The notes beneath the pieces were generated by a model. That model saw only the letters and a list, made by a program, of their open reading frames with translations. It was not told the DNA's origin and searched no databases. Positions 4,029-21,569 of a stretch of 21,569 nt of DNA are shown here, in pieces (position 1 is the stretch's first letter; the number at the start of each line of letters is the position of its first letter). Source of the stretch: a virus; IMG/VR virus record IMGVR_UViG_3300047560_000620, positions 1 through 21,569 of that record, one strand, 5' to 3'. The translations under genes and the position numbers were made by a program.

Positions 4029-7000
4029 TTACGTCTTGATGTCTTGCCAATCGGGCGCCTGGGTGTCATCAATGTCCTGCCACCCGGCACTTTGCGTGTT
4101 GTTGATTGACTGCCAGCTAGGAGATTGAGTGTCCTCAATATCTTGCCAGCCTGCAGCCTGCGAATTATTGATATTTTGCCAGTTCGGCACCTGCGTGTCA
4201 TCGATTGGGTTCCACAGGTACGCCGCAATAACGTAGTCATAGGCCGTAGCCATCTCTGGCACCGCCGAATAATAGACGCTTCCAGCCGGATCAAAACTGT
4301 CCGTAGCTGAGGCCGCCGCCAAAGCCGCTGCATTAAACACAGAGGGCGCCACCAAAACAAGATCCGCAACTGTCCCCAGCTCAAGAATTTGCGTAGCAAA
4401 CCCAGCATTGGCGATGCCGGCGTCTGTACCAGTGACCGTTTCGCTTACTCGCGCAGAAACGTCAAATGTTGTGCTGTTGATCTGAGTTCCGGTAGCGGAA
4501 TCGGAAAAAGCCGAAAGAAACCCAGCGGCGGCTGAATTAGTCTGCGTGGCCAAAGCAGAATCTGATGTTGCCGCAAGGTAAACGCTTCCAGCAGCGGTTA
4601 CGGCATCGGCCACCGTGGCTCCTTCAAGCAGGAGCGAGTTCATTACTTTGATCGCTGCAACCAAATCCGAAGCGGCGGCGGATTCTGATAGGCTTGCCAA
4701 CACCGAAGTCAAGGCCGCCACGACATCTGTGCCTGTCGCAGTATTGAGCACCGTAGCAGCAAATTGGGCATGAGCATTCAGCATGTCCATGCCGGTGGCC
4801 GTATCAAGCATTTGGGCCCGGAACGTGGCGGCGGCCGAAATTTGATCCGCTGCGGCAGCGGTTTCTGCGATAGCGGCTGCGTATGCTCTGGCGGCTGCAA
4901 TCAGGTCTGACGCCGTTGCAGAGTCCGCTACTTGCCCCAAGAATACGACTTTGCTTAGGATTGAGTCGGCAGCAGTCGATGTTTCTGAAATATTCGCCTG
5001 CGCGTTTACCTGAGCGGAATCCGAATCGGTCCCGGTAGCCGTTTCAATAATTCTGGATAGCGGACTGAAGATGGCGCTGTTAGTCTGGGTCCCAGTGGCA
5101 GTTTCGGTAATGGCACCGCTATACCGAAGCCCAGCGGTTATGCTATCTGCCCCGATCCCGGTTTCTGTAATGTACACAGCATACACAACACCGCCAGACG
5201 AGGCGAAGATCCATCCCAGTGACCCGAGGTTTGTGGAGTTTGCCCCGGCGTACCAAGTGCTGGACAAAGAGTACGCCCGGACGTTGGAGATGGACAGGTA
5301 GTCAGGCGTTGTTACTGTGCCGCTTGTCAGGATCAAAGTCGCTGGAGCAGCAGCAGATGTTCCGCTTAATGTAAGGAGTTTTGCCGCTGCGCCAGTACCT
5401 GTGAATTGCGCAAGCGTTGTGATTGTGGCCCCAAGTGAAATTGTCGCCGCACCTGTTGCACTGTAACTGTTAGTGATGTCTTTAAGTGTGTTGTTACCAG
5501 TAACGGTTAATGCGCCTGCGCCGCCATTGTTTAGCGTAATGCCGGAATAGGAAATGCCGCCACCTGCAAATGTCTTGGAGCTTGCGCTTGTCAGGCTGAT
5601 AGTGCCGGTGCCGGCGATGGTAGGGATATTAGCTGTTGCACTAATAGTAACCGCCGTACCAGCAAATGCTATTGTCCAGGTACCAGTCCCAAACGCAATT
5701 GACCTTGCGCCAAATCCAGTTCCGGTAGCGGCCAAACCACCTCCAGAAAGAGAGACGCTATAGCTTGCCGCATCAAATGTGCCCGCAGATATGGTTAATG
5801 AGGAGGGCGCAACACCACTACATACTAAAGCATCTTGAAGCGTCACCGATCCGGTTGGGCTGCTAATAGTAAATACCTGCGTAAACGTCACCCCCGCACT
5901 TGTAATCGTCTGACTTCCACGCCCCGCAAACGTCATGTTGTTACTACCAGTCAGCGTTGTTCCCGTCCCATTGATCCAGTTTCCATAAATTGCAGGTGTT
6001 GTTGTTCCCGTTGCCAGCGTCATCGTGTTGGCAGTGCGAGCACTCATGTCAATAGTGCCGATGTTGTAGTTGGCGTTGACTGTGACAATGTTTCCGCTAG
6101 TAGGATACGCAGTTGGGGTAGACGGAAAAATGGCTGTATCTTGAGCCAATGGAAATTGCGTAACATTTGGAATGCCGTTATTAGAACCTGACCACGAACC
6201 TGATCCTGCACTCCCCCAGTTTGATGATGCAGCAACTGCAAAATAAACCGTCTTAGCCGCAGGAAACGTAATTCCGCTGTTACCTTTGCAATCTCCTGCG
6301 CGTGTCGGTGCAATCGGAGATGCAGCACCAGTGATGGCGATGTCTCGGAAATCATAATCCGCAGCGCCAGCGGTTAATGTGCCGACGGACAGCGTTCGCT
6401 GTGTGCCAAGCGTGTCGGATGCCAAGAATGTGCGGTATGCGGCAGCAGTTCCAGCGTTGAGCGTTAGCGTGCTAATTGTCTGATTTGCGTTGAACGTAAC
6501 CGCACAAATACCAACAGTAGTTTGTCCAGCAAACGACAACGTGTTGAATGTGTTAACGCCAGTGATGGTAATTGATGTGGCTGCCGCGCTTGTGAAACTG
6601 ACGTTGTAAAAAGTCAAACCGCCGCCAGCAAATGTTGGGGCCGTTGTTGAAATGGAAATGCTAGATGTTCCTGCGTTAAAAGTTAAGTTTGTGATGATTG
6701 TAAAAGTCATGTTTCCAGCAAGCGGAACCGTACTGGCATTAAGTGATAGTGACCGAACTGTTGTCCCGCTGGATGCAAGTGATGTTGGGGAAAATGAATA
6801 GTTGCTCCCAGAAGTGCTAAACGAACCATAAGTAACGGTAAATGAATTCGCGTTAGAAAAAGCACTTCCCAGCGTCCATGTCGCCCCGACTCCTATAACA
6901 GTAACAATAGATGAAAGTGCTTGTCCATTGGTGGTAAACGTATAGCTGCTATTCCCTGCCAAGCTCATCGCGCCCGTGTATGTCCGGGTAATACCAGTGG

Positions 7001-9776
7001 CAGCAAAACTGACGTTGCCGTGGAAAGCAATGGCCACTGTGCCCGCAAATGTAACGTTGCCCGTTGCCGGACCCGCCATTGTGAACGACGCGCATTTAGC
7101 AATCGCTGTTAAGCCAGCATCAATCGTGGCTGTGTAAGCCGTGGCATTAGACAACGAATCAAAATTAACGGCATCCAAAGATGTGGGAATGGCTGCTCCT
7201 GATACTCCACCAGATGACGTTGACCACTTAGTCGTGCTTGACCAGTTGCCTGTGCCACCTACCCAGTAAAGAGTTCTAGGTGCTGGAGTGGCAGTAAAAA
7301 ATATTGGGCCTGTATTGCCAGCAGTATTGGTGCTATTTGCGCCAACATAGAACTCACCAGGGCTACTAGTAGAAACCGCGCAGTAGCTGATGGAAAGGTA
7401 GTCTATACCCGAATTTGCTGGGCCAGCAATAACTAGCGTATATGTGGATGCAGCGCTAAACGGCGCGAGTGTTACTACGTTTCCCGCAGTTCCTGTAACT
7501 GACCATTTCCCAATCGTATGTGTAACGCTGGATTGAAATGTAATTGTATGCGCTACGGTTTTGGTGGATGCAAGTTCGCCAAATGTATTTGAACCGGTAA
7601 TGGTCAGCGTTGATGTCCCCGTTGTACCGCCAATTGTTAGTTTGTTGTAATAACGACTACCACCATCAAATGTTCTTGCTGTAGTAGATGTGTTAGATAA
7701 AACAATGTTTGCTGTTCCCGCTATTAGAGTATTTGCAGAAATTATGCCCCATACAGTACCCGTACCAGTAAGAGTCCAAGTACCAGACCCCATTTTTACG
7801 ACTGCCAAGCCTGATGAATTTGTGCAAGATAATGCGCCAATCGTAACGTTATAAGTAACAGCATCAAATGTGCCGTAGGTAAGAATTAAAGTTGAGGTAG
7901 AAATTAAAGAAAACGCATCAGCAAGCCGCACAGTAACAAGAGGGTTAATAGTTGATACAAAACAACTAAACTGAACCCCATTACTCGTAATAGTAGAAGT
8001 TCCATTTTTGGCAAAAGCAATTGATCCCGCCGAACTTAATGCTGTGACACCTGTGCCAAACTTCCAATCACCATAAACAACCGGCGTAGTTGAACCCGCG
8101 CTTAATGACATTGCGCTAGTTCGCGCAGACGCATCAAACGTACCAATGTTCCAAGCCGCGTTAATCGTGATCGTACCTGTCACCGATCCCGTGTTATCAA
8201 ACACCGCCGTATCTTGAGCCAGTGGGAAGTTGTTTACCGCAGGCGCCCCACCAGAAGAAGTCGCCCAACCAGTAGCACTCCAGTTTTGTGCGCCAGCAAG
8301 GTTCCAGTAAACGGTTTTTGGTGACGGGAATGTGATGCCTGAGTTGCCGCCGCAGTTGCCTGCACGAGTTGGAGAACTGCCCGCAGCCGCTCCAGCAATC
8401 GTAATGTCACGGAAGTCACAGTCGGTTGCTGAAAGCAAATTAACAGCCAGAGTGCGAGAGGTTCCAACCGTGTCAGATCTCAAAAACAGACGATTTACAG
8501 CGGAAGCCCCTGAACAATTCAACGTTCCGTTAATGGTTTGCGGGTCCGAGAACGTTGCTCCCATTACTCCCGCCGGTACTGGAGAGGTAAAAGTCAAGTT
8601 GTTGTATGTGTTTGATCCAGTAATTGTATGGGTTGAGAATGCGTTGTTTGTGAAAGATACGTTGTAAAAAACAAGGCCGCCACCGTTAAAAGTCATGGAT
8701 GTCCCTATGGCCTGAAGCAAAGAAGTTCCCGCATTAAACGTTAAATTTGTTGATGTTAAAAAATTTAGCGTTGAACTAAAACTTAGTGTACTTGCACCAA
8801 GAGATATTGTTCTAACATTGGTGTTGGTGGATGTTAAAGTGCCAAGAGTAACCGCATACCCTTGTGTATTAAAGGTTCCGTTGGTGACGGTCAGCGTGTT
8901 TGTACCAATGTCCAACGCATCAGCAAGTTTCACCGTGCCGCCGTAGGTGTTTACGGCGATGGGACAGGTAAATGTTTTACCAGCGCTAGTGATGGTTTGG
9001 GTGCCGCCGCCGGAAAAAGTAAGGCCCAATAAGTTAGAAATTGTTGTGCCAGAGCCATTTGTCCAGTTTCCGTAAACTGTTGTTGCATTTGACACAGACA
9101 ATGTCATTGCACTTGTGCGTGCTGACATATCTACAGAACCAACATACCCGATGGCGGCATCCAGCGAAATTACCCCTGTTACCGAACCAGCGTTGTTAAA
9201 TGTTGCGGTATCTTGAGGTAATGGAAAATTGTCTGTTGAAGGTGCGCCACCCGATGTAGCTGCCCAACCTGTTGCCGACCAGTTCTGTGCCCCAGCCAAG
9301 TTCCAATACACCGTCTTAGGCGCATCAAACGTAATACCACGGCATTCGCCTCTGTTGCCAATCCGTGTACCGCTGATAGGCGCTGATGTGCCTGTGACGT
9401 ACACGCCACGAAAATCACAATCAAAAATACTTGCGGCACCATTGACGATCAAATTAGTGGAAATGCCATAAGTAGTTGACCTAAACCAAATTCTGTTATT
9501 TCCAGCAGTACCTGTCGTTGTCAATGCGCCTGTTGTAAGCGAAACGGTAATAGCAATTTGAAGAATGCCAGCGCCAGCGCTGGGCGTAATAGTCAATGAA
9601 TTTACTTGTTGCGCGGTATCGACTGTGGCAACGAATTTGCCACCAGAGTTTGCATCAAATATGGCATCATCAGCAGAAGTTGGCACAGATGCGCCAGATG
9701 CTCCTCCCGACGAGGTAGACCATTTGGTTGTGCTTGACCAGTTTCCTGCGCCACCAACCCAATATCTAGCAGCCAT
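4029..9776 (-). CDS. Giant modular repeat tail fibre or adhesin (1915 aa)
   Basis: The largest gene in the window. It begins MAARYWVGGAGNWSSTTKW, and the same YWVGG module returns near residue 836. A second module, DFR followed by an ITF element and KTVYW(N), occurs near residues 120-200, 450-530 and 1140-1210. Between these lie many short beta-strand repeats (for example TLTFNAGTS, FAGGGLTFYNVSFT, ITGSNTYNNLTF), typical of a beta-solenoid. Residues about 1530-1854 hold roughly sixteen repeats of 20 residues with core [ED][TS]AT[GA]TD. Residues 1859-1913 are five 11-residue WQxI repeats. No signal peptide or catalytic motif is seen. A surface-binding fibre is inferred from the repeats and from the neighbouring fibre gene. 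The start ATG follows the preceding stop directly (TAAATG). I see no frameshift along the frame. Confidence 0.85.
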   Translation of the reverse strand: MAARYWVGGAGNWSSTTKWSTSSGGASGASVPTSADDAIFDANSGGKFVATVDTAQQVNSLTITPSAGAGILQIAITVSLTTGALTTTGTAGNNRIWFRSTTYGISTNLIVNGAASIFDCDFRGVYVTGTSAPISGTRIGNRGECRGITFDAPKTVYWNLAGAQNWSATGWAATSGGAPSTDNFPLPQDTATFNNAGSVTGVISLDAAIGYVGSVDMSARTSAMTLSVSNATTVYGNWTNGSGTTISNLLGLTFSGGGTQTITSAGKTFTCPIAVNTYGGTVKLADALDIGTNTLTVTNGTFNTQGYAVTLGTLTSTNTNVRTISLGASTLSFSSTLNFLTSTNLTFNAGTSLLQAIGTSMTFNGGGLVFYNVSFTNNAFSTHTITGSNTYNNLTFTSPVPAGVMGATFSDPQTINGTLNCSGASAVNRLFLRSDTVGTSRTLAVNLLSATDCDFRDITIAGAAAGSSPTRAGNCGGNSGITFPSPKTVYWNLAGAQNWSATGWATSSGGAPAVNNFPLAQDTAVFDNTGSVTGTITINAAWNIGTFDASARTSAMSLSAGSTTPVVYGDWKFGTGVTALSSAGSIAFAKNGTSTITSNGVQFSCFVSTINPLVTVRLADAFSLISTSTLILTYGTFDAVTYNVTIGALSCTNSSGLAVVKMGSGTWTLTGTGTVWGIISANTLIAGTANIVLSNTSTTARTFDGGSRYYNKLTIGGTTGTSTLTITGSNTFGELASTKTVAHTITFQSSVTHTIGKWSVTGTAGNVVTLAPFSAASTYTLVIAGPANSGIDYLSISYCAVSTSSPGEFYVGANSTNTAGNTGPIFFTATPAPRTLYWVGGTGNWSSTTKWSTSSGGVSGAAIPTSLDAVNFDSLSNATAYTATIDAGLTAIAKCASFTMAGPATGNVTFAGTVAIAFHGNVSFAATGITRTYTGAMSLAGNSSYTFTTNGQALSSIVTVIGVGATWTLGSAFSNANSFTVTYGSFSTSGSNYSFSPTSLASSGTTVRSLSLNASTVPLAGNMTFTIITNLTFNAGTSSISISTTAPTFAGGGLTFYNVSFTSAAATSITITGVNTFNTLSFAGQTTVGICAVTFNANQTISTLTLNAGTAAAYRTFLASDTLGTQRTLSVGTLTAGAADYDFRDIAITGAASPIAPTRAGDCKGNSGITFPAAKTVYFAVAASSNWGSAGSGSWSGSNNGIPNVTQFPLAQDTAIFPSTPTAYPTSGNIVTVNANYNIGTIDMSARTANTMTLATGTTTPAIYGNWINGTGTTLTGSNNMTFAGRGSQTITSAGVTFTQVFTISSPTGSVTLQDALVCSGVAPSSLTISAGTFDAASYSVSLSGGGLAATGTGFGARSIAFGTGTWTIAFAGTAVTISATANIPTIAGTGTISLTSASSKTFAGGGISYSGITLNNGGAGALTVTGNNTLKDITNSYSATGAATISLGATITTLAQFTGTGAAAKLLTLSGTSAAAPATLILTSGTVTTPDYLSISNVRAYSLSSTWYAGANSTNLGSLGWIFASSGGVVYAVYITETGIGADSITAGLRYSGAITETATGTQTNSAIFSPLSRIIETATGTDSDSAQVNAQANISETSTAADSILSKVVFLGQVADSATASDLIAAARAYAAAIAETAAAADQISAAATFRAQMLDTATGMDMLNAHAQFAATVLNTATGTDVVAALTSVLASLSESAAASDLVAAIKVMNSLLLEGATVADAVTAAGSVYLAATSDSALATQTNSAAAGFLSAFSDSATGTQINSTTFDVSARVSETVTGTDAGIANAGFATQILELGTVADLVLVAPSVFNAAALAAASATDSFDPAGSVYYSAVPEMATAYDYVIAAYLWNPIDDTQVPNWQNINNSQAAGWQDIEDTQSPSWQSINNTQSAGWQDIDDTQAPDWQDIKT
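4038..4202 (-). repeat. Five tandem 11-residue WQxI repeats at the end of the giant fibre
   Basis: Five consecutive 33-base units encode DDTQVPNWQNI, NNSQAAGWQDI, EDTQSPSWQSI, NNTQSAGWQDI and DDTQAPDWQDI, followed only by KT and the stop. Consensus: [DEN][DN][TS]QxxxWQxI. Odd units carry an acidic pair and a proline, even units NN and Ala-Gly, so the real period is 22 residues. The units differ at the DNA level. Confidence 0.95.
4215..5189 (-). repeat. About sixteen 20-residue repeats in the giant fibre
   Basis: Units begin with patterns such as ITETATGTQTN, IIETATGTDSD, VADSATASDLI, VLNTATGTDVV and FSDSATGTQIN, followed by an Ala-rich hydrophobic stretch. Most are exactly 20 residues (60 bases) long, with one- or two-residue slips near the end. 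The consensus is [IVL]x[ED][TS]AT[GA][TA][DQ]. Codon use differs between units, so the repeat is protein-level rather than a recent DNA expansion. Confidence 0.9.
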
Positions 9777-11625: not shown

Positions 11626-11850
11626 TCACGCCATTGGGCCGCGAGCCATCACGCCTTTTGTGGCCGCACCAGTTCCACGGATTTTAATTCCCTTGGTTTT
11701 AACCGGATACTCACCAGCAGACTTATCGATGTTGCCAACGCTTACATCATAAGTATCTAGTTTGCTATTATTCTTTGCTTTCGCCAAAGCGGGAGCTGCC
11801 TCTTTATATCGTCCGACATAAGCAGAAGCTGGCTTGTTGTTTTTTGCCAT
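11626..11850 (-). CDS. Small basic phage protein with RGTGAATKG motif
   Basis: A 74-aa lysine-rich protein. It starts MAKNNKPASAYVGRYKEA and ends with TKGIKIRGTGAATKGVMARG then PMA (residues 52-74). This glycine-rich basic C-terminus is very recognisable among uncultured aquatic phages as I remember them, where it is also the C-terminus; no function is known to me. The arginine/lysine-rich, glycine-rich tail could contact nucleic acid or fit into a virion channel (inference). The start lies 2 bases after the previous stop (TGATCATG), so translation is probably coupled. Other small basic proteins with shared motifs are next to it and further upstream. Confidence 0.75.
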   Translation of the reverse strand: MAKNNKPASAYVGRYKEAAPALAKAKNNSKLDTYDVSVGNIDKSAGEYPVKTKGIKIRGTGAATKGVMARGPMA

Positions 11851-11852
11851 GA

Positions 11853-12050
11853 TCAGCCTTTCTTTTGAGCAGCGACTTTGGCCAAGTTGCGGCCAACTTT
11901 CATCATCTGCTCATTGGTTTTACCGCCGCCAAGTTTGCCTTTGCCTTTGGCGCCAGCCTGGATTTCAACGGAAGGACCGCTATCACCAAGATTTTTACCT
12001 TTGGTCTTGCCATTTTTGGCAATGCCATCAGCAGAACGTGTATAAGCCAT
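11853..12050 (-). CDS. Small basic protein with N-terminal DGIA..GKT motif
   Basis: A 65-aa protein starting MAYTRSADGIAKNGKTKGKN, then a Gly/Lys-rich middle (AGAKGKGKLGGGKTNEQMMK) and a C-terminal VGRNLAKVAAQKKG. The residues RSADGIAKNGKTKGK (5-19) are the same motif found at the C-terminus of three other small proteins in this window, but here it is at the N-terminus. Two adjacent ATGs are possible. The second (12050) is preferred because GGAG lies 6 bases upstream, against 3 for 12053. Strongly basic. Function unknown; a nucleic-acid-binding or virion-internal role is only a guess. Confidence 0.75.
   Translation of the reverse strand: MAYTRSADGIAKNGKTKGKNLGDSGPSVEIQAGAKGKGKLGGGKTNEQMMKVGRNLAKVAAQKKG
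11994..12038 (-). repeat. DGIA..GKT motif copy, N-terminal version
   Basis: Encodes RSADGIAKNGKTKGK. Other copies lie at 13808-13858, 14336-14386 and 14563-14607. This is the only one located at a protein start. Confidence 0.85.
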
Positions 12051-12060
12051 CATTTACTCC

Positions 12061-12450
12061 TTACGTCACCGACACAGTGACTGTACCAACATTCCCTTGA
12101 ATAACCAAGTTATTTGGAGTTAAAACTTCATCAAAATAACTTGCCCCACCAACCGGGTTCCAGCCCCATTGAATGACTCGGCTACCACCACCAGGAGTCC
12201 CGTCCACCGTAGTTCCAGACACAAAATAGGTTGTGTCCTTTCTTGGGTTTCGAACTGCCTGTGGATCATCCACTGGGAACATTCCCAACAGCAATTGCGG
12301 CTGATCAGGATCCCAGCACTCAGGACAAACAAGCAATTGATACCGTTTTGTCTTGATGATCTCTTCTTTGAGCTGTTTCAGCTTGTACTGCTGACCGCAG
12401 CGGTCGCACTCAGCAATGCTGCGTTTGCCCGATGCGAATCTATTGCCCAT
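12061..12450 (-). CDS. Zinc-ribbon phage protein
   Basis: A 129-aa protein. Residues 15-18 (CDRC) and 42-45 (CPEC) form two CxxC pairs about 24 residues apart, a zinc-ribbon arrangement. The first sits in MGNRFASGKRSIAECDRCGQ and the second in LLVCPECWDPDQPQ. The C-terminal half (from about residue 70) is beta-rich and polar, ending VIQGNVGTVTVSVT, more like a structural domain. I remember similar CDRC...CPECWD proteins beside phage neck genes, annotated as hypothetical. The ribbon could bind nucleic acid or stabilise a small virion protein; no experiment is known to me. The start overlaps the preceding stop by one base (TAATG). Confidence 0.8.
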   Translation of the reverse strand: MGNRFASGKRSIAECDRCGQQYKLKQLKEEIIKTKRYQLLVCPECWDPDQPQLLLGMFPVDDPQAVRNPRKDTTYFVSGTTVDGTPGGGSRVIQWGWNPVGGASYFDEVLTPNNLVIQGNVGTVTVSVT

Positions 12451-13379
12451 TAAATTCCGCTCCCAATGAACATCTGGCGCGGCACAAAGCGGACAGCAGC
12501 CTTCTCCCGGTCCTCGCCGGCAGCCAGGTCAAACTGCTCGTTGTAAACGTTCTTCAGCATATCAATCCGCTGGGCAAGCTCAGGAACCTTCATCGCAATG
12601 TAGTACGCAAGGCCGGCAACAACCACTGGCAAGAAGCGGAAATTCATATCGCCAGTCTCAATACCGGCACCTGCATCCTGAACCCGACGCATTCTCCAAT
12701 ACACAAATTGGTACGTCGTTGTGTTATCTGGTGTTGGCCAAACAGTCACGGCCGGCAAATTTGGGTTGTAAACAATAGCCTGATCAGCATGTGAAGCTGC
12801 AGTTGTGTTGTTTTGACCCCTGAATACATTGCCAAGCTGATTGCCGCTGATGTACCCGTAGTAGATGTCTTCGCTACCGATGCGAATAAATCCGCTGGAA
12901 GCCAGCCCAGTTGTGTCGCTCAGCGAGATTGTCGTAGTTGAGGCATCAATTGCCCCATCCAGGACGGCATTTGTGGGCGAAACAACGCCAGACATGCGCT
13001 GCACCCAAACCTGAATGGGACGCGCCTGCGTCAGCTTGTTTGGGATCGTCGCATAAGTAGAAACACTAATGCGCGTAATGTTCAAGTCAGCCTGCGTTGA
13101 CACCGTATTGGCGCCAGTTCGAATGACGTGCTCTAGCAGATCAATCGTATCCAAAGGAAGCGCGTACGTGTTTAGGCCAGGAGTCAAGGTGATAGTTCCT
13201 TGCTCAATGGTCCACATATTGATGCCACGGTTTTGCCACTCAATCGTCATCAAATTCATTGATCGACGTGCAGTGCGCAAATCATAGCCAGACCGCATTT
13301 CGCGGCCAGCACGCTCCCACGCCTCTTCAGCGATTTCCGTAAATTCCAGGTCAAAAAGGGAGGTGCCGCTAGTTGTCAT
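12450..13379 (-). CDS. Neck connector / tail-tubular-A-like protein with inserted domain
   Basis: A 309-aa protein. Residues 8-58 are helical and match a common phage neck family: LFDLEFTEIAEEAWERAGRE, GYDLRTARRSMNLMTIEWQN, RGINMW. Next come beta strands (GTITLTPGLNTYALP). The C-terminal part has VTVWPTPDNTTTYQFVYWRM then RRVQDAG, and a long helical end (LAYYIAMKVPELAQRIDML). Such proteins sit under the portal and link the head to the tail or adaptor. Residues about 138-205 look like an extra inserted beta domain (LDGAIDASTTTISLSDTTG, then GFIRIGSEDIYYGYISGN, VFRGQNNTTAASHADQAIVY). The start overlaps the preceding 57-aa gene as ATGA. Confidence 0.8.
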   Translation of the reverse strand: MTTSGTSLFDLEFTEIAEEAWERAGREMRSGYDLRTARRSMNLMTIEWQNRGINMWTIEQGTITLTPGLNTYALPLDTIDLLEHVIRTGANTVSTQADLNITRISVSTYATIPNKLTQARPIQVWVQRMSGVVSPTNAVLDGAIDASTTTISLSDTTGLASSGFIRIGSEDIYYGYISGNQLGNVFRGQNNTTAASHADQAIVYNPNLPAVTVWPTPDNTTTYQFVYWRMRRVQDAGAGIETGDMNFRFLPVVVAGLAYYIAMKVPELAQRIDMLKNVYNEQFDLAAGEDREKAAVRFVPRQMFIGSGI

Positions 13380-13549
13380 TTCATGCCCTTGAGCGTTTCA
13401 GCCAAACGAGCACGCTGACCTAGCTTGCCAGGTTTCTTGGCAGCGGCAGCAAGTTTTTTGGCCGGGATTGGTTGGCCTTTTTTGGCGCCAAGCTCTTTGC
13501 GCAAAGCACCAGGCTTAGAGATTGCCTTCTGGATCCATTTTTCAGCCAT
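13376..13549 (-). CDS. Short basic helical protein (57 aa)
   Basis: A short gene read directly from the sequence. It encodes MAEKWIQKAISKPGALRKEL then GAKKGQPIPAKKLAAAAKKP, GKLGQRARLAETLKGMK. Most of the protein is helical and lysine/arginine-rich. The pattern WIQKAI-KPGALRK-LG-KKGQ-IPAKKL-AA-K-GKLG-RA-LA-TL is one I remember as a conserved small phage protein, so it is not a random frame. The start overlaps the end of the preceding 83-aa gene by 8 bases (ATGGCTGA). Its TGA overlaps the ATG of the next connector gene. No function is known to me. Confidence 0.85.
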   Translation of the reverse strand: MAEKWIQKAISKPGALRKELGAKKGQPIPAKKLAAAAKKPGKLGQRARLAETLKGMK

Positions 13550-13793
13550 TTCTTGCCGCCTTCATATTGTCGATTAGATTCGGGTAAGGACGTCCTGCAG
13601 CCTTTGCAGAAGCTTTAGCGGCAGCCTTTTTGGCCGGGCTAAGCTTCTTATGCTTCTTGGCGGGGTTCGGAGAATTCCAAACCTCACCGCCTTCAGCATA
13701 CTGGGTGAAATCAGTATTGTCACGACGCGCCTTACGCACGCCTTTTGGCATTTTGCTGGGAGCAATTGCACCCATTCCGCGAGACGACATCAT
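13542..13793 (-). CDS. Small basic protein with YAEGGEVW motif
   Basis: An 83-aa protein starting MMSSRGMGAIAPSKMPKGVR. It continues with KARRDNTDFTQYAEGGEVWN, then a Lys/Ala-rich stretch (KKHKKLSPAKKAAAKASAKA) and AGRPYPNLIDNMKAARNG. Its net charge is strongly positive. The YAEGGEVW stretch matches the [YFL]xxGG motif in neighbouring small proteins, and the closing AGRPYPNLIDNM-AAR is a conserved ending I remember from related phages. AAGGGG stands upstream of two adjacent ATGs (13793 and 13790), and either can be the start. Function unknown. Histone-like packing or a virion-internal role is only a guess. Confidence 0.75.
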   Translation of the reverse strand: MMSSRGMGAIAPSKMPKGVRKARRDNTDFTQYAEGGEVWNSPNPAKKHKKLSPAKKAAAKASAKAAGRPYPNLIDNMKAARNG

Positions 13794-13804
13794 GACAATT
13801 CCCC

Positions 13805-14323
13805 TTAAACAATACGACCTTTGGTCTTGCCGCGCTGAGCAATGCCATCTCCACGGCGAGATGCCATGCCGCCCTTTGCGTAGTTGGCGCTGCCCATAAA
13901 CTTTTGTTCAGACGCTTTGGGACGGCTTGTAGGCATTTTGGCGCGCTCTGCCGCACGAGCTTCAGCATCAGCAGCACGTTGAGCTGCACGCTTGGCCACA
14001 TAGCTTTCAGCACGTTCTTGCATCGTTTCCTGGCGCAATGGCGCGCGAGCAGGTGCCGGCGCAGGCGCAGGAGCCGCTGCAGGCGCAGGACGACGAGCAG
14101 GGGCCAAAGCCGTGTTGTACTTCTTTCCACCAAACTCAAAGTTCTTGTCGCCACGGCTACGAGCAGCAGCAAAAGCCTCTTTGAAAGTTGAAGGTTCAGC
14201 AGCAGCCTTGTCTCGCATCCCTTTCAGAATGGCTTCGCCAGCAATTTCCTGAGACTCTTTAGAAGCATTTGCAGCCTCCAAGGGATCAACTTCTCCACCC
14301 TCTTCGTACTTTTTGCGCGCCAT
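13805..14323 (-). CDS. Small basic protein with Pro/Ala linker and C-terminal DGIA motif
   Basis: A 172-aa protein with three parts. The N-terminus MARKKYEEGGEVDP carries the [YFL]xxGG motif. Residues 46-74 (STFKEAFAAARSRGDKNFEF then GGKKYNTALA) form a compact motif, FKEAF-AAR-x(4)-F-[FW]-GK-Y-T-LA, that I remember at the ends of several phage proteins. A Pro/Ala linker (about 77-95) leads to an Ala/Arg/Glu helix. The C-terminus (148-172) reads NYAKGGMASRRGDGIAQRG then KTKGRIV, combining a second xxGG and the DGIA..GKT motif. AAGGAG lies upstream of the ATG. The mixture suggests a modular linker or internal virion protein (inference). Function unknown. Confidence 0.75.
   Translation of the reverse strand: MARKKYEEGGEVDPLEAANASKESQEIAGEAILKGMRDKAAAEPSTFKEAFAAARSRGDKNFEFGGKKYNTALAPARRPAPAAAPAPAPAPARAPLRQETMQERAESYVAKRAAQRAADAEARAAERAKMPTSRPKASEQKFMGSANYAKGGMASRRGDGIAQRGKTKGRIV
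13808..13858 (-). repeat. DGIA..GKT motif copy in the 172-aa protein
   Basis: Encodes RRGDGIAQRGKTKGRIV immediately before the stop. Nearly identical to the copy in the next gene upstream (14336-14386), which encodes RRADGIAQRGKTRGKMV. The DNA copies differ at several synonymous positions. Confidence 0.9.
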
Positions 14324-14332
14324 GATGACTCC

Positions 14333-14533
14333 TTAAACCATCTTGCCACGGGTCTTGCCGCGCTGGGCAATACCGTCAGCACGACGTGAAGCAGACGAAA
14401 CCGATCCGCCAGCCTTATACGTCTCAGGCATTTCTTCGGCAGCCTTAACGCCTTCAGGACTTTGAGGAACGGGCACGCCAGAATCTTCGGTCCAGATGCC
14501 GCCACGAATACCTTTGACTTTTTTCTTGGCCAT
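14333..14533 (-). CDS. Small basic protein ending in DGIA..GKT motif
   Basis: A 66-aa protein, MAKKKVKGIRGGIWTEDSGV followed by PVPQSPEGVKAAEEMPETYK and AGGSVSSASRRADGIAQRGK, ending TRGKMV. It carries both shared elements, YKAGGSV and a C-terminal RADGIAQRGKTRGKMV. The start at 14533 is the ATG preceding AKKK and lies 2 bases after the previous stop (TAATCATG), so translation is probably coupled. A longer GTG start would overlap the previous gene and has no advantage. Function unknown. Near-identity of its last 17 residues with those of the neighbouring 172-aa protein suggests duplication or a shared targeting role (inference). Confidence 0.75.
   Translation of the reverse strand: MAKKKVKGIRGGIWTEDSGVPVPQSPEGVKAAEEMPETYKAGGSVSSASRRADGIAQRGKTRGKMV
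14336..14386 (-). repeat. DGIA..GKT motif copy in the 66-aa protein
   Basis: Encodes RRADGIAQRGKTRGKMV immediately before the stop. It differs from the copy at 13808-13858 by three conservative-type residue changes (A/G, R/K and KM/RI). Confidence 0.9.
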
Positions 14534-14535
14534 GA

Positions 14536-14913
14536 TTAGCACTTTCCGCCGCGTTTCATTGCGACAACTTTACCAACAGTTTTACCTTTTTTTGCAATTC
14601 CGTCACGACTAGGAGCAGCCGTTTTGACAGCGCCCATCTTGGTCATTCCGCCTTTTGCAAGCTTCAAAGAAGTCCCTTTGCCGCCCTTGTGCTCTTGAGC
14701 ATCATGCTGCTTAAAGGCTTTTTTGATCAAGGCTTTGTCTTGAGCCAAATCTTTCTTGTCCATAGTCTCACCGCCTTTTGAAAATTTGCGGCCTTTGTCT
14801 GCCGCTGTGAATTCCTTGCCAACCTTTTGAGGGATGCCAAGACGTTTTGCTGCGGCCGGGTCATGAGCGACCATGGCCATCAAATTGTGTTGAGCTTTGC
14901 TAACCGACGGCAT
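14536..14913 (-). CDS. Small basic protein with xxGG and DGIA..GKT motifs
   Basis: A 125-aa, highly basic protein. The N-terminus MPSVSKAQHNLMAMVAHDPA, then AAKRLGIPQKVGKEFTAADK, is a recognisable family start (SKxQxNLM...LGIPxxVGKEFTxADKG) that I remember from many uncultured phages. Two xxGG stretches follow (FSKGGETM, residues 44-51, and LAKGGMTK, 85-92), then a C-terminus SRDGIAKKGKTVGKVV with a final AMKRGGKC. It thus contains all shared elements of this gene cluster. The start overlaps the preceding TM gene by 14 bases. Function unknown; the charge suggests contact with DNA or an acidic partner (inference). Confidence 0.8.
   Translation of the reverse strand: MPSVSKAQHNLMAMVAHDPAAAKRLGIPQKVGKEFTAADKGRKFSKGGETMDKKDLAQDKALIKKAFKQHDAQEHKGGKGTSLKLAKGGMTKMGAVKTAAPSRDGIAKKGKTVGKVVAMKRGGKC
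14563..14607 (-). repeat. DGIA..GKT motif copy in the 125-aa protein
   Basis: Encodes RDGIAKKGKTVGKVV, the most divergent of the C-terminal copies, followed by AMKRGGKC and the stop. Confidence 0.8.
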
Positions 14914-15170: not shown

Positions 15171-15431
15171 TCAGCACTTCCAAGCTCTTAAACTTTTGTT
15201 GATCCTGCTGTCTGGGTCTTTTGCGGTTTTTGCGCTGGTCAGTTTACTCTTCATGCCTTCCATTCGGGCGCAAAAAGAAGCCTTGCGACCTTTATCAGCC
15301 TTGGTTTTGGGGGACGGAGCAGGAGGCTTCAGGTTCATGCCCTGAGCTTTGGCTGACGCCCGACCTTTGGCATTCAATCCGCCTTTAGGATTTTTGCCTT
15401 CAGCTCTTTGCCATGCTGGAGTCTTAGCCAT
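15171..15431 (-). CDS. Small basic protein, DUF6321-like
   Basis: An 86-aa protein starting MAKTPAWQRAEGKNPKGGLN then AKGRASAKAQG, and ending KASFCARMEGMKSKLTSAKT, AKDPDSRINKSLRAWKC. This is a very conserved phage pattern (PAWQR-EGKNP-GGLN-KGRAS ... KSFCARM-GMK-KLTSAKTA-DPDSRINKSLR-W-C) that I associate, from memory and without a search, with the DUF6321 family. No function is known to me. Two cysteines (54 and 86) and a high Lys/Arg content are notable. The ATG at 15431 overlaps the stop of the glycosyltransferase gene by 8 bases (ATGGCTAA). Confidence 0.85.
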   Translation of the reverse strand: MAKTPAWQRAEGKNPKGGLNAKGRASAKAQGMNLKPPAPSPKTKADKGRKASFCARMEGMKSKLTSAKTAKDPDSRINKSLRAWKC

Positions 15432-16167
15432 ACGCAACTTTCAGATTGGAAAGACGAATGTTTTCCAACATGGGAATTACGACTTCTTCTCTGAAGTTGT
15501 TTGTAAAAGCCTCTGTGCCAATGTGCGGAAGACTGATATCAACATCCACCCAAATTTGGCCGCCAAGTTCTCTTACACGATCACAAAAAAGATAATCTTC
15601 GCCAACAAACTTACCATCCTTAACGGCAAAGTCAAACAAAGCAGAGATGGTCCCATCTGCATCTTTGTTTTCATACTGCCATTCTGGATGAGCCGCAATC
15701 AGCTTCTCAATGATTTCTCTGCTAATCATCATGAACCCAGTTCCAACTCGGTTCACACGCATCAAAGACCCATCGAATTCCAGGTTTTCGTCTTCGTCGT
15801 AATAGACATCCAGGAAAAATCTTTTATCGCTTGCACGACGAGGATACATTCCTGCGGTCACATCCCTCCCTTTGTGCTGCGCCAAAAGACGAAGCACATC
15901 GTCAGGAGTGACAATCACATCCGAATCAATAAACAAAAAGTCGGTTGAGTCTGTTTTCAAGAACTCATTGACAAGAGCATTGCGCGCCATCGTAATGATG
16001 GAGCATCCAGACATATCGGACAAAAAAACGCTGACCCCAAGAGACAATGCTTTTGGCATGAGTTGCGCCAAAGCAAAAGCAGTCTTAATGTTGAGCTTGC
16101 CGTCGTAAGCCGGAATTGCAATGAACAATTTCCGACCACTGAGATCAGCGCTTTTTGTTTCAGCCAT
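15424..16167 (-). CDS. GT-A-fold glycosyltransferase (family 2-like)
   Basis: A 247-aa cytosolic enzyme. The N-terminus KLFIAIPAYDGKLNIKTAFA is the first Rossmann-type strand of a nucleotide-sugar-binding fold. Residues 78-84 (LFIDSDV) contain the DxD-type metal site (D81-S82-D83), which binds the sugar nucleotide through a divalent cation. MYPRR (107-111), the GTGFMMISREIIEKL strand (142-156), GEDYLFCDR (189-197) and the final H215 after WVDVDISLP form the acceptor and catalytic half. All key elements look intact. The donor and acceptor are unknown. A phage copy might modify host lipopolysaccharide, a virion protein or DNA. The gene sits inside the structural operon, overlapping its neighbours by 8 bases on both sides, which suggests a virion-related target (inference). 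Confidence 0.85.
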   Translation of the reverse strand: MAETKSADLSGRKLFIAIPAYDGKLNIKTAFALAQLMPKALSLGVSVFLSDMSGCSIITMARNALVNEFLKTDSTDFLFIDSDVIVTPDDVLRLLAQHKGRDVTAGMYPRRASDKRFFLDVYYDEDENLEFDGSLMRVNRVGTGFMMISREIIEKLIAAHPEWQYENKDADGTISALFDFAVKDGKFVGEDYLFCDRVRELGGQIWVDVDISLPHIGTEAFTNNFREEVVIPMLENIRLSNLKVAYG

Positions 16168-17047: not shown

Positions 17048-17956
17048 TCAGGCGCCAGGGGAGCCGTAGATACCCAGGGGATCCGACACGCCGAAGCTGT
17101 AACGCTCGCGGGCCTTGTAGCGCACGTTGCCGGTGTCAAAGTCGCCGTCCATGCTGTTTTGCAGCGGGGTACGAACGAAGTGCTTCAGACCGTTAGGCAC
17201 GTCCGTGGTCAGGAACCAGGCGTTGTTGTCGGTCAACCAGTGGTTGATTGCATAGCCCTCGGGGATCGAACCGTTGTTCTTCAGGGCGTTGATATCGTTG
17301 TCGTTTGTGCCAACACGGAGGTTGGTTTCCAACAGACGGGTAGCAACGAACTGCAGAGCCGGCGGAATGATCAGCTTCTTGGGCTTGGCAGCAATCAGCA
17401 GACCACGTTCATCCGTCCACGCAGCGATCTGAATCACGGCGTTTTCCAACGACGTTTCGTTCAGGTCAGCAGCCGTGGCGGGCGTGTTGCTGTTGGTGCC
17501 ACCGGACACCAGGGGGTGGGCCGTAGAGCACAATTGCACGCCGTCGCCGTACTTCACGTTCGAGTTGAACGCTTGGTTCAGCACATAAGCGGCCTTAACC
17601 TGCTTCGTGTAAGCCATGGCGCGAGCCAGAGCTTTTGTATAACGGCCGGACAGGCTGTCATACAGGTTATCTTCCACGGCTTCCTCGGTGATGGCAAAGC
17701 CCATCGCGATGGTTTCGTGGTTGTAACGAGCAGTCCAGGCTTCCTGGCCGTTGTCGTACTGGATCGCAGAACCTTCGTTCTTGACCGGTGCGGCAGAGAA
17801 GCCAGACAGCTTGGTTTCTTCTTCAAAGCTACGCTCCGAGGTTTCGGTTTCGTAGATTTCCTTGTGCTCTTCGCCGTAACGGGCGTACTCCAGACCAAAC
17901 AGAGCGTTCAGACCGGGGAGCAGTTCTTTCAGCAGTTGTGCGCGTGAAATAGCCAT
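17048..17956 (-). CDS. Major capsid protein, Mu gpT-like
   Basis: A 302-aa protein starting MAISRAQLLKELLPGLNALF then GLEYARYGEEHKEIYET. Diagnostic segments are ARYNHETIAMGFAITEEAVE, NLYDSLSGRYTKALARAMAY, QLCSTAHPL, WTDERGL, LIIPPALQFVATRLLET and GYAINHWLTDNNAWFLTTDV. The pattern FAITEE-VEDNLYD...R-AKALA-AM-YTK and the later P-LIIPP...ATRLL fit the Mu-like head subunit gpT (HK97-fold) family as I know it. It forms the icosahedral shell. No N-terminal scaffold-like delta domain is seen, which fits the separate scaffold gene upstream. A strong AAGGAG lies 6 bases before the ATG. A terminator follows, as expected for the most abundant virion message. Confidence 0.9.
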   Translation of the reverse strand: MAISRAQLLKELLPGLNALFGLEYARYGEEHKEIYETETSERSFEEETKLSGFSAAPVKNEGSAIQYDNGQEAWTARYNHETIAMGFAITEEAVEDNLYDSLSGRYTKALARAMAYTKQVKAAYVLNQAFNSNVKYGDGVQLCSTAHPLVSGGTNSNTPATAADLNETSLENAVIQIAAWTDERGLLIAAKPKKLIIPPALQFVATRLLETNLRVGTNDNDINALKNNGSIPEGYAINHWLTDNNAWFLTTDVPNGLKHFVRTPLQNSMDGDFDTGNVRYKARERYSFGVSDPLGIYGSPGA

Positions 17957-18604: not shown

Positions 18605-19063
18605 TTAAATACCTTTACCGAAGGTAACACTCGACTTCCGCTCTTTGAACATCGGCATCCGAGCATCACTCTCACGCATGAAGCTGTTATCCACGGAGTT
18701 CATCTGCGACTCGGATTGGTTTCCATAGTACGCATTACGTTGCTCCACGAATTCAACTGGGGTTTTGCAAAGCAGCAAGCCGCCGACCTCAATGCTGTCC
18801 GGGAAATGCTTATTTCCAGGTCCAAACAATTGAATCTCGGGATGCTCAGAAGCCTTGACTGGTTCCCAACCTTCGCGCAATTTTGCGGAAACGTTACGAG
18901 CGTCATCCTCATTCAACATGCGTACACGAATCCAGCGAAACGCATAGCCAGGCTCCGGGTTCGGATCAGGCAGAAGCTGGGGAGGCATCCACTTTTTGGG
19001 GCGCATGGACGACTCACGATTCTCGACACCACGTTTTTCACGAATTTGTTCACTCATTTTCAT
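18605..19063 (-). CDS. Conserved head-morphogenesis protein (unknown function)
   Basis: A 152-aa protein. Its core is RPKKWMPPQLLPDPNPEPGY then AFRWIRVRMLNEDDARNVSA, KLREGWEPVKASEHPEIQLF, IEVGGLLLCKTPVEFVEQRN, AYYGNQSESQMNSVDNSFMR and ESDARMPMFKERKSSVTFG. The pattern KKW-PP-LLP-P-P-x(3)-RWIR ... N-S-K-REGW-PVKA-[ED]HPE ... GGL-LCK-P ... RN-YY ... SVDN-F-RESD-RMP is a very conserved phage family between scaffold and head genes, with no known function that I recall. Two ATGs are possible. The upstream one overlaps the scaffold stop as ATGA; the one at 19057 has a better-spaced GAGG. Confidence 0.85.
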   Translation of the reverse strand: MKMSEQIREKRGVENRESSMRPKKWMPPQLLPDPNPEPGYAFRWIRVRMLNEDDARNVSAKLREGWEPVKASEHPEIQLFGPGNKHFPDSIEVGGLLLCKTPVEFVEQRNAYYGNQSESQMNSVDNSFMRESDARMPMFKERKSSVTFGKGI

Positions 19064-20019
19064 TTCCTCATTTCTTCCGCAACCTTACGAGCATAGAGAT
19101 CCAGCGGGACTCCAAGCCGTTTGGCGATTTCCACCTGCGATTTGGTAAGTACGACTTTCTTAGGCGCAGTACCCCGTGTTGCCGGTGCGACAACATTCGA
19201 TTGTTTCGGCGGAGGTGACGCATCCACCGGTTTCTCGGACTCGAATTTATCCGGGAAACGTTGACGCATTTCTGCGTCGATTCGCTTGTAATAGTCTTCG
19301 CTCGAAGGATCGATTCGCTCTTCTTGCGTCAACTCTTCATGCAGGGCCAGCGCATAACTTGTCATGCGGCGGTCCTGACCGAACCATTTGTTCTTACTTT
19401 GCCAGTCTACAGCCTTTTCGTCAACCTTTGGTGTTGCAGGGGGCTGACGAAGTGACTCCGGAAGTTGTACTTCCTTGTCTTCCGGGGGTGCGGCCGGCTT
19501 GAAATTGCTGACCCGTTCGGCCTTCATTTTGACCGTTGTCAGTTCTTCCTGGGCAGCTACCAAAGCCTCGGAATCACCGGATTCGTAAGCTTCTTTGTAC
19601 CGGCGTTTGGCCTGTTCCAGCTCATTTGCCACCACTTTTTTGGCCTGTTCCAGCAGTGCTGTCTGACCTTGCGACAAAGAGCCTTTCAGCTTTTTGTTTT
19701 CTTCGGCCAGTTGCTGTGCAAACCGCAGAGCTTCCTCTTTTTGGCGCTCTGCAGCCTCTTTGGCCCGGCGCTCCTCGTGGTAGCCCTTGGTGAAATGCTG
19801 AATGCGCTTGCGAACGCCTTCATCATATTTGGCAAGTTCGTCGTCAGTTACCTCTTTCGGAGGTTCATCCATCGGCTTGCGGTTCTGATCTTTCGGCGGA
19901 GTATCGTCAACAATTTCGATTTCGGGAGCTTCATCCTTCACCTCTACTTTGTTTTCTTTTTCCGCTTTTTCCTCGGCTTCATGAGGAAATTCAAATTCGA
20001 CCTTTTCAAAATCGGCCAT
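19060..20019 (-). CDS. Scaffold-like head assembly protein
   Basis: A 319-aa, very charged protein. Residues 1-70 are acidic (Glu/Asp/Lys with EIEIVDDTPPKDQ). Residues about 78-175 form a long coiled coil with EERRAKEAAERQKEEALRFA, QQLAEENKKLKGSLSQGQ and ELEQAKRRYKEAYESGDSEA. A proline-rich linker and a WFGQDRRMT segment follow, and the C-terminus is a basic helix (KRLGVPLDLYARKVAEEMRK). An acidic disordered start, central coiled coil and basic C-terminal helix are typical of phage scaffolds, whose C-terminus binds the capsid protein. Gene order (portal, small genes, scaffold, head genes) supports this. AAGGAG precedes the ATG. No protease domain is visible. Confidence 0.8.
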   Translation of the reverse strand: MADFEKVEFEFPHEAEEKAEKENKVEVKDEAPEIEIVDDTPPKDQNRKPMDEPPKEVTDDELAKYDEGVRKRIQHFTKGYHEERRAKEAAERQKEEALRFAQQLAEENKKLKGSLSQGQTALLEQAKKVVANELEQAKRRYKEAYESGDSEALVAAQEELTTVKMKAERVSNFKPAAPPEDKEVQLPESLRQPPATPKVDEKAVDWQSKNKWFGQDRRMTSYALALHEELTQEERIDPSSEDYYKRIDAEMRQRFPDKFESEKPVDASPPPKQSNVVAPATRGTAPKKVVLTKSQVEIAKRLGVPLDLYARKVAEEMRK

Positions 20020-20028
20020 ATTTACTCC

Positions 20029-20430
20029 TTACGCACGCTGAATGCCGCGCGGATCTTGCACCACGGCCTCAACGGAGTCATCGTTAATCAATCGGAATTC
20101 CTTCCCATGGATCTTGATTCGGGTTCCAGTGTTCGGGCGAACCAAAACAAAGTCACCAACCTTGCAAGACGGTCCAGACGGGAATCGCTTCTCGTCCTTG
20201 TATGCGTCAGGGCCAACTTTCACCACAAAAAGCACTGGCGACAGCACTTCTTCAAAGTGAATAGTTTGACCAGACTTCAACAAACCAGAATCGCCAAACT
20301 TTTCATCAATGTCCGGTAGTACGCACAGCAGATGATAGGTGGCAGGATCAGGCATTTGACGTGCCTTTTCCTCTTCCGTTTTGTTCAGCAAGCCAGACAG
20401 ATCAACTGCACTGACATCAAACTCACTCAT
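20029..20430 (-). CDS. GroES-like co-chaperonin (Cpn10)
   Basis: A 133-aa protein. The N-terminal 30 residues form an extension (DVSAVDLSGLLNKTEEE) not found in GroES. From residue 32 it follows the GroES fold: YHLLCVLPDIDEKFGDSGLL with the mobile-loop region (about 44-62), VLFVVKVGPDAYKDE (66-80), CKVGDFVLVRPNTGTRIKI (89-107) and HGKEFRLINDDSVEAVV at the end. The VGDxVL-x(5)-G, G-EFRLINDDS-[VI] and VKVGP-A elements are the usual conserved places. Such phage proteins can replace GroES as lid of the host GroEL chamber during capsid folding, as T4 Gp31 does. Its site beside the scaffold gene supports a capsid role. AAAGGA is 8 bases upstream. The start overlaps the preceding stop by 8 bases (ATGAGTGA). 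Confidence 0.85.
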   Translation of the reverse strand: MSEFDVSAVDLSGLLNKTEEEKARQMPDPATYHLLCVLPDIDEKFGDSGLLKSGQTIHFEEVLSPVLFVVKVGPDAYKDEKRFPSGPSCKVGDFVLVRPNTGTRIKIHGKEFRLINDDSVEAVVQDPRGIQRA

Positions 20431-20620
20431 CGTCGTTTTCCTTTAGTCTTCGCACGAGGTCAGCAATTTCAAGTTGTGCGGTCTGCAGACCTCGGATTTG
20501 ACCGCACACTTCCTTATACGCGTCGAAGGATGCTGCACTTCCACGCGATATAAATTCGATGAGTTCATTCAACCTCTCCGCCAATTTGGAATTGAGGTGC
20601 TCAAGGACTTTTAATTCCAT
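20423..20620 (-). CDS. Small helical phage protein downstream of the portal
   Basis: A 65-aa protein starting MELKVLEHLNSKLAERLNEL then IEFISRGSAASFDAYKEVCG, QIRGLQTAQLEIADLVRRLK and ENDDE. It is almost all helix with heptad-like spacing, consistent with a small coiled-coil dimer. The pattern FISRGSA-SFDAYK-VCG-I-GL-TA...I-DL is one I remember as conserved next to phage portal genes; function unknown. The ATG overlaps the portal TGA by one base (TGATG) and has AAGGAG 4 bases upstream. A TTG just upstream is a possible but poorer start. It overlaps the co-chaperonin gene by 8 bases. Confidence 0.75.
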   Translation of the reverse strand: MELKVLEHLNSKLAERLNELIEFISRGSAASFDAYKEVCGQIRGLQTAQLEIADLVRRLKENDDE

Positions 20621-21569
20621 CAATCTCCTTTGCTACCCGACGATTTCGCAGTCGGCAATGGTTGTTTTGCGGCTCTTTCCGCAGCCATTTCGGCGTGTCG
20701 AGCCCGTTGTTCTGCGGTCATTTCGGCATGACGCAGTTTTTGATTCATAACCTGGCCACCATGCGCCATCGCCTGGGCATGTTGCTGCTGAGCCATGGCC
20801 ATTTGCTGCTGATGCTGCTCCATTTCGCGCTGTTGCTGGGCCTTCAAGGCTTCCATTTCCATCGCGTGACGTTGCATGATCATCATTGGGTTGTCCAAAC
20901 CCTCTTTTGCATGCAGCTCCTGGGCTTTGAGAGCCACTTCTGCCTGCTTGAGGGCCAGCTCTCCCTGCACTTTTTGACCCTTGATCTGCACTTCTTGCGC
21001 GCGAATCTTGAGTTCTTCCTGCTGCATCTGGACCATGGGGTCTTGAGCCATCTGCTGAGCCTGTTGTTGCTGGGCTTGAGCCGTATCTTGAGCCAAAACT
21101 TGCTTGGCAGCCTGGGCAACAAGGCGAGAAAGCTGCACTTCCACGTCTTCCGGCAGGTCTTCGTCCGGGCTTGGCAGTGGCACACCCAGTTGCTCTTCCA
21201 CTTTGCGGCGATATGCAAAGGCCAAGTGCTCCGCAATGTGCGCTTGAATCTCGGCCATCATCTTTTGAGCCTGGGGATTCTGGCCAATTTGAGCCATGAG
21301 CAGAGGATCCTGCATCATTGAGCTGTGAACCGCAATGTGAGCGTCGTGATCCTGGTAAATGAACGCTTTTGTGGGTTTTCCATTCAAAAATGCCATGTTT
21401 TCGCTGATTGGATCGCGAGGTTTCATGTCATCTTCAATGGGAACCAGCTTCTCAGCGTTGCGCACCCCCAAAACTTCAATCATTTGACGGTGCAACTGGG
21501 GCAAATCATAGATTTGAGGAGCTTGTGCAGACAGTTGAATCACTGCCTGGTACTGCATAATCCGCTGCG
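20620..21569 (-). CDS. Portal protein, C-terminal part (5' end outside window)
   Basis: The frame stays open to the window edge, with QRI before MQYQAVIQLSAQAPQIYDLP, so the start is missing. Visible are about 315 residues: LHRQMIEVLGVRNAEKLVPI, then DPISENMAFLNGKPTKAFIY and QDHDAHIAVHSSMMQDPLLM, all typical of the C-terminal (barrel-base) part of large podovirus portals. A long Gln/Met/Ala-rich coiled coil follows, with TAQAQQQQAQQMAQ, MEALKAQQQREMEQHQQQMA and the tandem heptad RHAEMTAEQRARHAEMAAER. It ends with a short Ser/Gly/Lys tail. The portal forms the twelve-fold DNA channel for packaging. Position at the head of the structural cassette fits. The terminase presumably lies further upstream. 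Confidence 0.85.
   Translation of the reverse strand, partial: QRIMQYQAVIQLSAQAPQIYDLPQLHRQMIEVLGVRNAEKLVPIEDDMKPRDPISENMAFLNGKPTKAFIYQDHDAHIAVHSSMMQDPLLMAQIGQNPQAQKMMAEIQAHIAEHLAFAYRRKVEEQLGVPLPSPDEDLPEDVEVQLSRLVAQAAKQVLAQDTAQAQQQQAQQMAQDPMVQMQQEELKIRAQEVQIKGQKVQGELALKQAEVALKAQELHAKEGLDNPMMIMQRHAMEMEALKAQQQREMEQHQQQMAMAQQQHAQAMAHGGQVMNQKLRHAEMTAEQRARHAEMAAERAAKQPLPTAKSSGSKGD

Follow-up and report, generated by a model that had tools for sequence, protein, structure and literature searches.

The present analysis identified a short peptide carried by otherwise unrelated small phage proteins as a modular, C-terminally anchored tag, which is under selection at the protein level and is linked to a single capsid lineage and a single gene island. 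The element is quite likely a docking tag of some kind, and the reading that we prefer, with a probability of roughly one half, is that it recruits variable small proteins to a conserved head component and thereby loads them into the head.

The Motif and Its Surroundings in the Window

The window, namely the whole 21.6-kb virus record that was analysed, has its genes read on the minus strand in the order portal end, GroES, probable scaffold, capsid, further head genes, DUF6321 protein, and tagged genes, after which come neck adaptors, fibre-like proteins, and lysis genes. No head protease family was found among the window proteins scanned, the only peptidase being an M15 peptidase fragment beside the holin. 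A 1915-aa protein (4029–9776), probably a fibre or spike, contains repeated YWVGGxGNWSSTTKWS units and ends in a W-Q-(D/N)-I repeat. The features used below are as follows; the tag copies were located with a degenerate DNA pattern.

20620–21567, minus strand: portal protein, C-terminal part; candidate receptor
20029–20430: GroES co-chaperonin gene, inside the head module throughout the lineage and in cultured relatives
19060–20019, minus strand: probable scaffold protein (PHROG 28737, function unknown), its role inferred from position and composition; candidate receptor
17048–17956, minus strand: major capsid protein (Pfam Phage_capsid_4 / Mu-like gpT); candidate receptor
15171–15437, minus strand: DUF6321 protein, without a tag in the window, tagged in some relatives
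14536–14913, minus strand: tagged protein A, 125 aa, with the helical N-domain of PHROG 16759 and a disordered tail; tag near the C-terminus, then AMKRGGKC
14563–14607, minus strand: tag copy in protein A, RDGIAKKGKTVGKVV
14333–14542, minus strand: tagged protein B, up to 69 aa, with the extreme C-terminal tag SASRRADGIAQRGKTRGKMV
14336–14386, minus strand: core tag copy in protein B, RRADGIAQRGKTRGKMV
13805–14323, minus strand: tagged protein C, 172 aa, with an extreme C-terminal tag
13808–13858, minus strand: core tag copy in protein C, RRGDGIAQRGKTKGRIV
13542–13793 and 13376–13549, minus strand: two more small, very basic, untagged island proteins
12450–13379, minus strand: SU10-type neck adaptor, the downstream border of the tagged island
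11853–12053, minus strand: N-terminally tagged protein, 66 aa, of a conserved family adjoining the adaptor genes
11994–12038, minus strand: tag copy in the N-terminally tagged protein, RSADGIAKNGKTKGK
11626–11850, minus strand: small basic protein ending in a conserved motif, KIRGTGAATKGVMARGPMA, that is related to the tag but distinct from it and is absent from the earlier note on this DNA

A codon-degenerate DGIAxxGKT pattern matched the window exactly four times, always on the minus strand, and gave no match in 100 dinucleotide-preserving shuffles of the window. All four copies that the earlier note had reported were thus recovered in place, and its consensus R-x-D-G fits two of them; the copy at 14563–14607 has R-D-G, and that at 11994–12038 has R-S-A-D-G. 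The stop codon lies three residues past the last Gly of the tag in proteins B and C, and the protein A copy continues as KVVAMKRGGKC, which represents a second, conserved tag class.

Compared pairwise over 12 codons, the window copies show 1–7 synonymous and 2–4 non-synonymous codon differences, so the synonymous divergence of the DNA copies described in the earlier note is real. Its further proposal of selection on the peptide is supported across the viral contigs, where the codons of the invariant residues are almost as mixed as those of the protein bodies.

Anatomy of the Tag across Viral Contigs

Scanning viral contigs with the DNA pattern of the motif alone yielded at least 120 stretches, many with two to five copies, and 275 distinct tagged proteins were collected among the matches listed and from further contigs. 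The tag is at or near the C-terminus in 244 of these proteins and near the N-terminus in 29. It is 17–20 residues long, occurs within one phage on as many as about six small proteins with nothing else in common, and has the consensus [ST]AS-x-R-[AG]-D-G-[IC]-A-x-[KR]-G-K-T-[KR]-G-[KR]-hydrophobic-hydrophobic-COOH. Each tag contains five or six Lys/Arg. Its Asp (99%), Ala, and Thr are invariant, although the conservation of the DG.A..GKT.G core is inflated because the contigs were found by that same pattern; this bias does not extend to the SAS-x-R stretch, the linker, the hydrophobic end, or the distance to the C-terminus. With a looser pattern of six fixed residues, 204 C-termini were obtained, and 199 of them matched the tight consensus.

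Three main classes account for the collection apart from six proteins. In class 1 (173 proteins) the tag is the extreme C-terminus, and its last Gly is followed by exactly three residues in 172 of them; a Gly-Gly linker stands just upstream in 99%, and a hydrophobic residue at −2 in 99% and at −1 in 95%. In class 2 (71 proteins) the tag lies 5–25 residues before the C-terminus, and 55 members have a Cys within the last three residues. Class 3 consists of 25 proteins of a single N-terminally tagged family adjoining the adaptor genes.

Tags within a contig are more similar to each other than tags between contigs (0.736 vs. 0.674; none of 1000 permutations was as high), for which co-evolution with a partner and duplication are two possible explanations. 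Nothing meaningful came from searching the PDB with a profile of the tag.

Modularity of the Tagged Proteins

When the tags were cut off, 234 bodies fell into 100 unrelated clusters, whose representatives are net positive in 96 cases and predicted to be disordered by the charge-hydropathy rule in 82. Pfam and PHROG scans of these 100 representatives identified only the DUF6321 member, plus two marginal Pfam matches.

The same body was found with a tag, without one, or with a different tag flank. The DUF6321 protein carries the tag in L124, L146, L163, and L172 and lacks it in the window and in most relatives; therefore, the tag is modular. In the orthologues of protein A, the N-domain (PHROG 16759) is kept while the tag flank switches among TAAPS-RDG, TGK-TPDG, AGHKS-ADG, GYTxA-ADG, and SASxR-ADG.

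Both of these proteins have relatives elsewhere. The DUF6321 domain is present in 497 phage records, chiefly those of cyanophages and pelagiphages, and in most of the larger protein families containing it the domain makes up the extreme C-terminus; it may therefore itself be a terminal sorting domain. The 40-residue N-domain of protein A (14790–14913) also starts jumbo phage proteins of PhiPA3 and GAP32, among them GAP32_317, which by annotation alone is a virion structural protein, and, in Stenotrophomonas phage BUCT555, a 52-aa protein whose gene directly follows that of the probable portal.

AlphaFold modelled the N-domain of protein A with a pLDDT of 74–85 and its tag at about 50, and confidence was low through the whole tag of the N-terminally tagged protein. 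The region around the tag is thus probably disordered, and the models do not support the alternative, named in the earlier note, that the motif forms part of unrelated folded domains.

One Lineage and One Gene Island

Of the C-terminal tags that could be placed, 127 of 130 are bounded by the capsid (or DUF6321) gene on one side and the SU10 adaptor gene on the other. The gene order around this island was constant in about twenty long contigs, with one to six tagged genes between the capsid and adaptor genes; the lone exception is a tagged gene just beyond the adaptor in L163. No tagged genes were present in six distal stretches, each about 20 kb long. Homologues of the head and neck genes of the window were present in all 121 tagged contigs tested, indicating that the motif marks one phage lineage, and capsid identity to that of the window was 75–90% in the 51 tagged contigs that include the capsid gene.

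As a control without the tag as bait, contigs were anchored on the capsid gene, which more than 600 contigs carry, and at least 4.5 kb downstream was required. C-terminal tags were present in 33 of 46 contigs at ≥80% capsid identity, in 2 of 21 at 70–80%, and in none of 25 at 60–70%. Capsid identity to the window therefore predicts the presence of the tag in a relative, and the absence of the motif from relatives, which the earlier note would have counted against its idea, was not observed among the close ones.

A bacterial scan (one genome per species) gave 13 matches against about 6 expected by our own estimate from base frequencies, and real tagged genes occurred only in a Chitinophagales MAG (L122) and a gammaproteobacterial MAG (L124). 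Searching cultured phages with isolated tags by tblastn returned nothing, or only Planktothrix phage Pag-Yong1 and near-identical records. The open-access literature, searched with exact tag strings included and with most subscription papers outside its scope, contained no description of the tag, and within that literature its carriers are a phage group without an earlier description.

Of the 13 untagged close relatives by capsid, at least five have degenerate or alternative endings, e.g., RADGCVTKGHTKGKFV, GIEIKGKTKGKMITM, and RGAGCETRTKKTRYV. A motif-free comparison of C-termini within each contig was used to seek other common endings, in which tag pairs scored 79–116 and internal 25-mers from the same contigs, as a control, at most 39. 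Unrelated proteins were found to share TRGDGACMKGHTKGRMV (twice in L347), ENYNDQVKRKFGGGKL (twice in L337), and a DYIKDL ending (twice in L450), and in pelagiphage HTVC023P (L136) the proteins at 11873–12610 and 22698–23081 both end in RGxGAAxRGxxFxGVx. Including L457, L460, L395, and L254, pairs of otherwise unrelated small proteins with other common C-termini were thus seen in several relatives, as if each lineage of the capsid family had its own tag. The SGIVIIRYKFQ repeats that end large HTVC023P proteins were rejected as tag equivalents and are probably fibre ends.

It is conceivable, if on our estimate doubtful, that such sorting is family-wide, each lineage having its own C-terminal tag and its own head-protein reader and loading more than 100 small disordered families for delivery to the host. 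The protein at 11626–11850 and its homologues (L177, L180–L186, and others) end in [KV][IMV]RG[TA]G[AC]ATKG[VFT]M[ASC]RGPM[AG]; as this motif has the core G-x-A-T-K-G in common with the tag, it may be an older relative of it.

A Possible Role in Head Loading

The idea of a tag, put forward in the earlier note, is strongly supported by the fixed C-terminal distance, the Gly-Gly linker, and the 100 unrelated bodies, and further by the occurrence of the same body with and without it, the low-confidence AlphaFold models around it, and its restriction to a single island next to the capsid gene. In the proposed scheme, the tag would be read together with the free carboxyl end as the head is assembled and would bind a conserved, lineage-specific head component, i.e., the capsid shell, scaffold, or portal. 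Such docking would bring an exchangeable group of small basic proteins into the head; once inside, they could contribute to holding the DNA or, after injection, act on the host. Loading into the capsid is our best inference, drawn from gene position and analogy.

Several points weigh against this scheme. A free C-terminus is evidently dispensable in some cases, given the existence of two closely related tag classes and of the N-terminal copy. Among the close relatives by capsid, several are without a recognisable tag, and the likeness of tags within a genome could result from gene duplication rather than from a shared receptor. The basic, disordered bodies also suit a DNA-binding role.

Such a role could extend to the tag itself, as a basic tail that holds its carrier on packaged or replicating phage DNA without any protein receptor, in which case the island would encode genome-condensing proteins. 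The five or six Lys/Arg per tag, the net positive charge of 96 of the 100 body clusters, and the very basic untagged neighbours at 13542–13793 and 13376–13549 agree with this; we nevertheless consider it rather unlikely, since charge alone would require neither invariant Asp, Ala, and Thr nor a hydrophobic end and a fixed free C-terminus, features that suggest a binding pocket, and since the tags track one capsid lineage.

Docking away from the head interior, at the portal or neck exterior, a host protein, or a membrane site, in infection or assembly and without packaging, is likewise improbable. The head module accounts for position and lineage no less well, the two contigs with real tagged genes in the bacterial scan both come from MAGs, and no host target bearing a signal of this kind is known to us, even though the island ends at the neck-adaptor genes, the N-terminally tagged protein is encoded among them, and several tags end in Cys.

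That the tag is a processing or fate signal, such as a cleavage site, degron, or nascent-chain arrest peptide, appears very unlikely. It is C-terminal in most proteins and one class has a Cys near the end, but copies also lie near the N-terminus and 5–25 residues from the end, the window proteins scanned include no head protease family, and to our knowledge the invariant residues match no known degron or arrest peptide.

A Walker A motif is hardly credible, although GIAQRGKT and most other copies literally fit GxxxxGK[ST]: Lys is replaced in Pag-Yong1 and L017 (GRT) and in L084 (GFT), no NTPase family was found among the 100 body representatives, the AlphaFold confidence of about 50 at the tag does not indicate a folded alpha/beta domain with a Walker B, and, as the motif ends the protein, the helix needed after Walker A is missing. 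A DNA-level element, with the peptide a by-product of a recombination or packaging site or of recent copying, might explain why the repeats cluster in one island and are somewhat more alike within contigs, but it can be practically dismissed, given that 172 of 173 proteins keep the same frame and the same spacing to the stop codon and that codon use at invariant residues is nearly as mixed as the body background.

If the preferred reading of head loading is correct, the tag would be a portable address label by which packaged proteins of an abundant uncultured lineage could be identified from sequence alone, and a common location and testable role would be assigned to more than a hundred unknown protein families. 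A different tag in a relative would predict a changed partner, which offers a direct way to find the receptor.

Comparison with Known Systems

The closest known relatives are the HTVC023P-type pelagiphages and Pag-Yong1, which have the same capsid family and head gene order; the capsid, GroES, portal, and adaptor genes follow the same order in the window, HTVC023P, and Pag-Yong1, which places the window among the tailed phages of this type. The window capsid is 74% identical to that of Pag-Yong1, which has a single tagged protein (UMO75986) ending in DGCAKRGRTKGRFI, and 65% identical to that of HTVC023P, which has no DGIA-type tag.

The capsid-targeting sequence (CTS) of phage T4 is N-terminal and is removed by the head protease, whereas the present tag is unrelated to it in sequence, is mostly C-terminal (244/275, with 29/275 near the N-terminus), and occurs in a window whose scanned proteins include no head protease family. 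The two are alike in that one short signal is common to diverse small head-linked proteins, IPI–IPIII in the case of T4. The T-even internal proteins are described as a highly diverse set with only the CTS in common (PMC3012670), and the tag is similarly found on 100 unrelated body clusters, beside head genes in 127 of 130 cases.

The cargo-loading peptide of encapsulins is short, usually C-terminal, and sometimes N-terminal, and the cargo genes adjoin the HK97-type shell gene (PMC7355545). The tag resembles it in being short, mostly C-terminal, and carried by proteins encoded beside a shell gene. The encapsulin is, in contrast, a bacterial compartment without DNA that holds enzyme cargo through an unrelated peptide, whereas the tagged bodies are disordered and the shell beside which they are encoded is a phage capsid (Phage_capsid_4 / Mu-like gpT) whose gene belongs to a complete phage head module. 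The tag is therefore neither a T4 CTS nor an encapsulin peptide, but by analogy it may work like both, and, if it does load proteins into heads, a loading logic common to phage heads and encapsulins would emerge.
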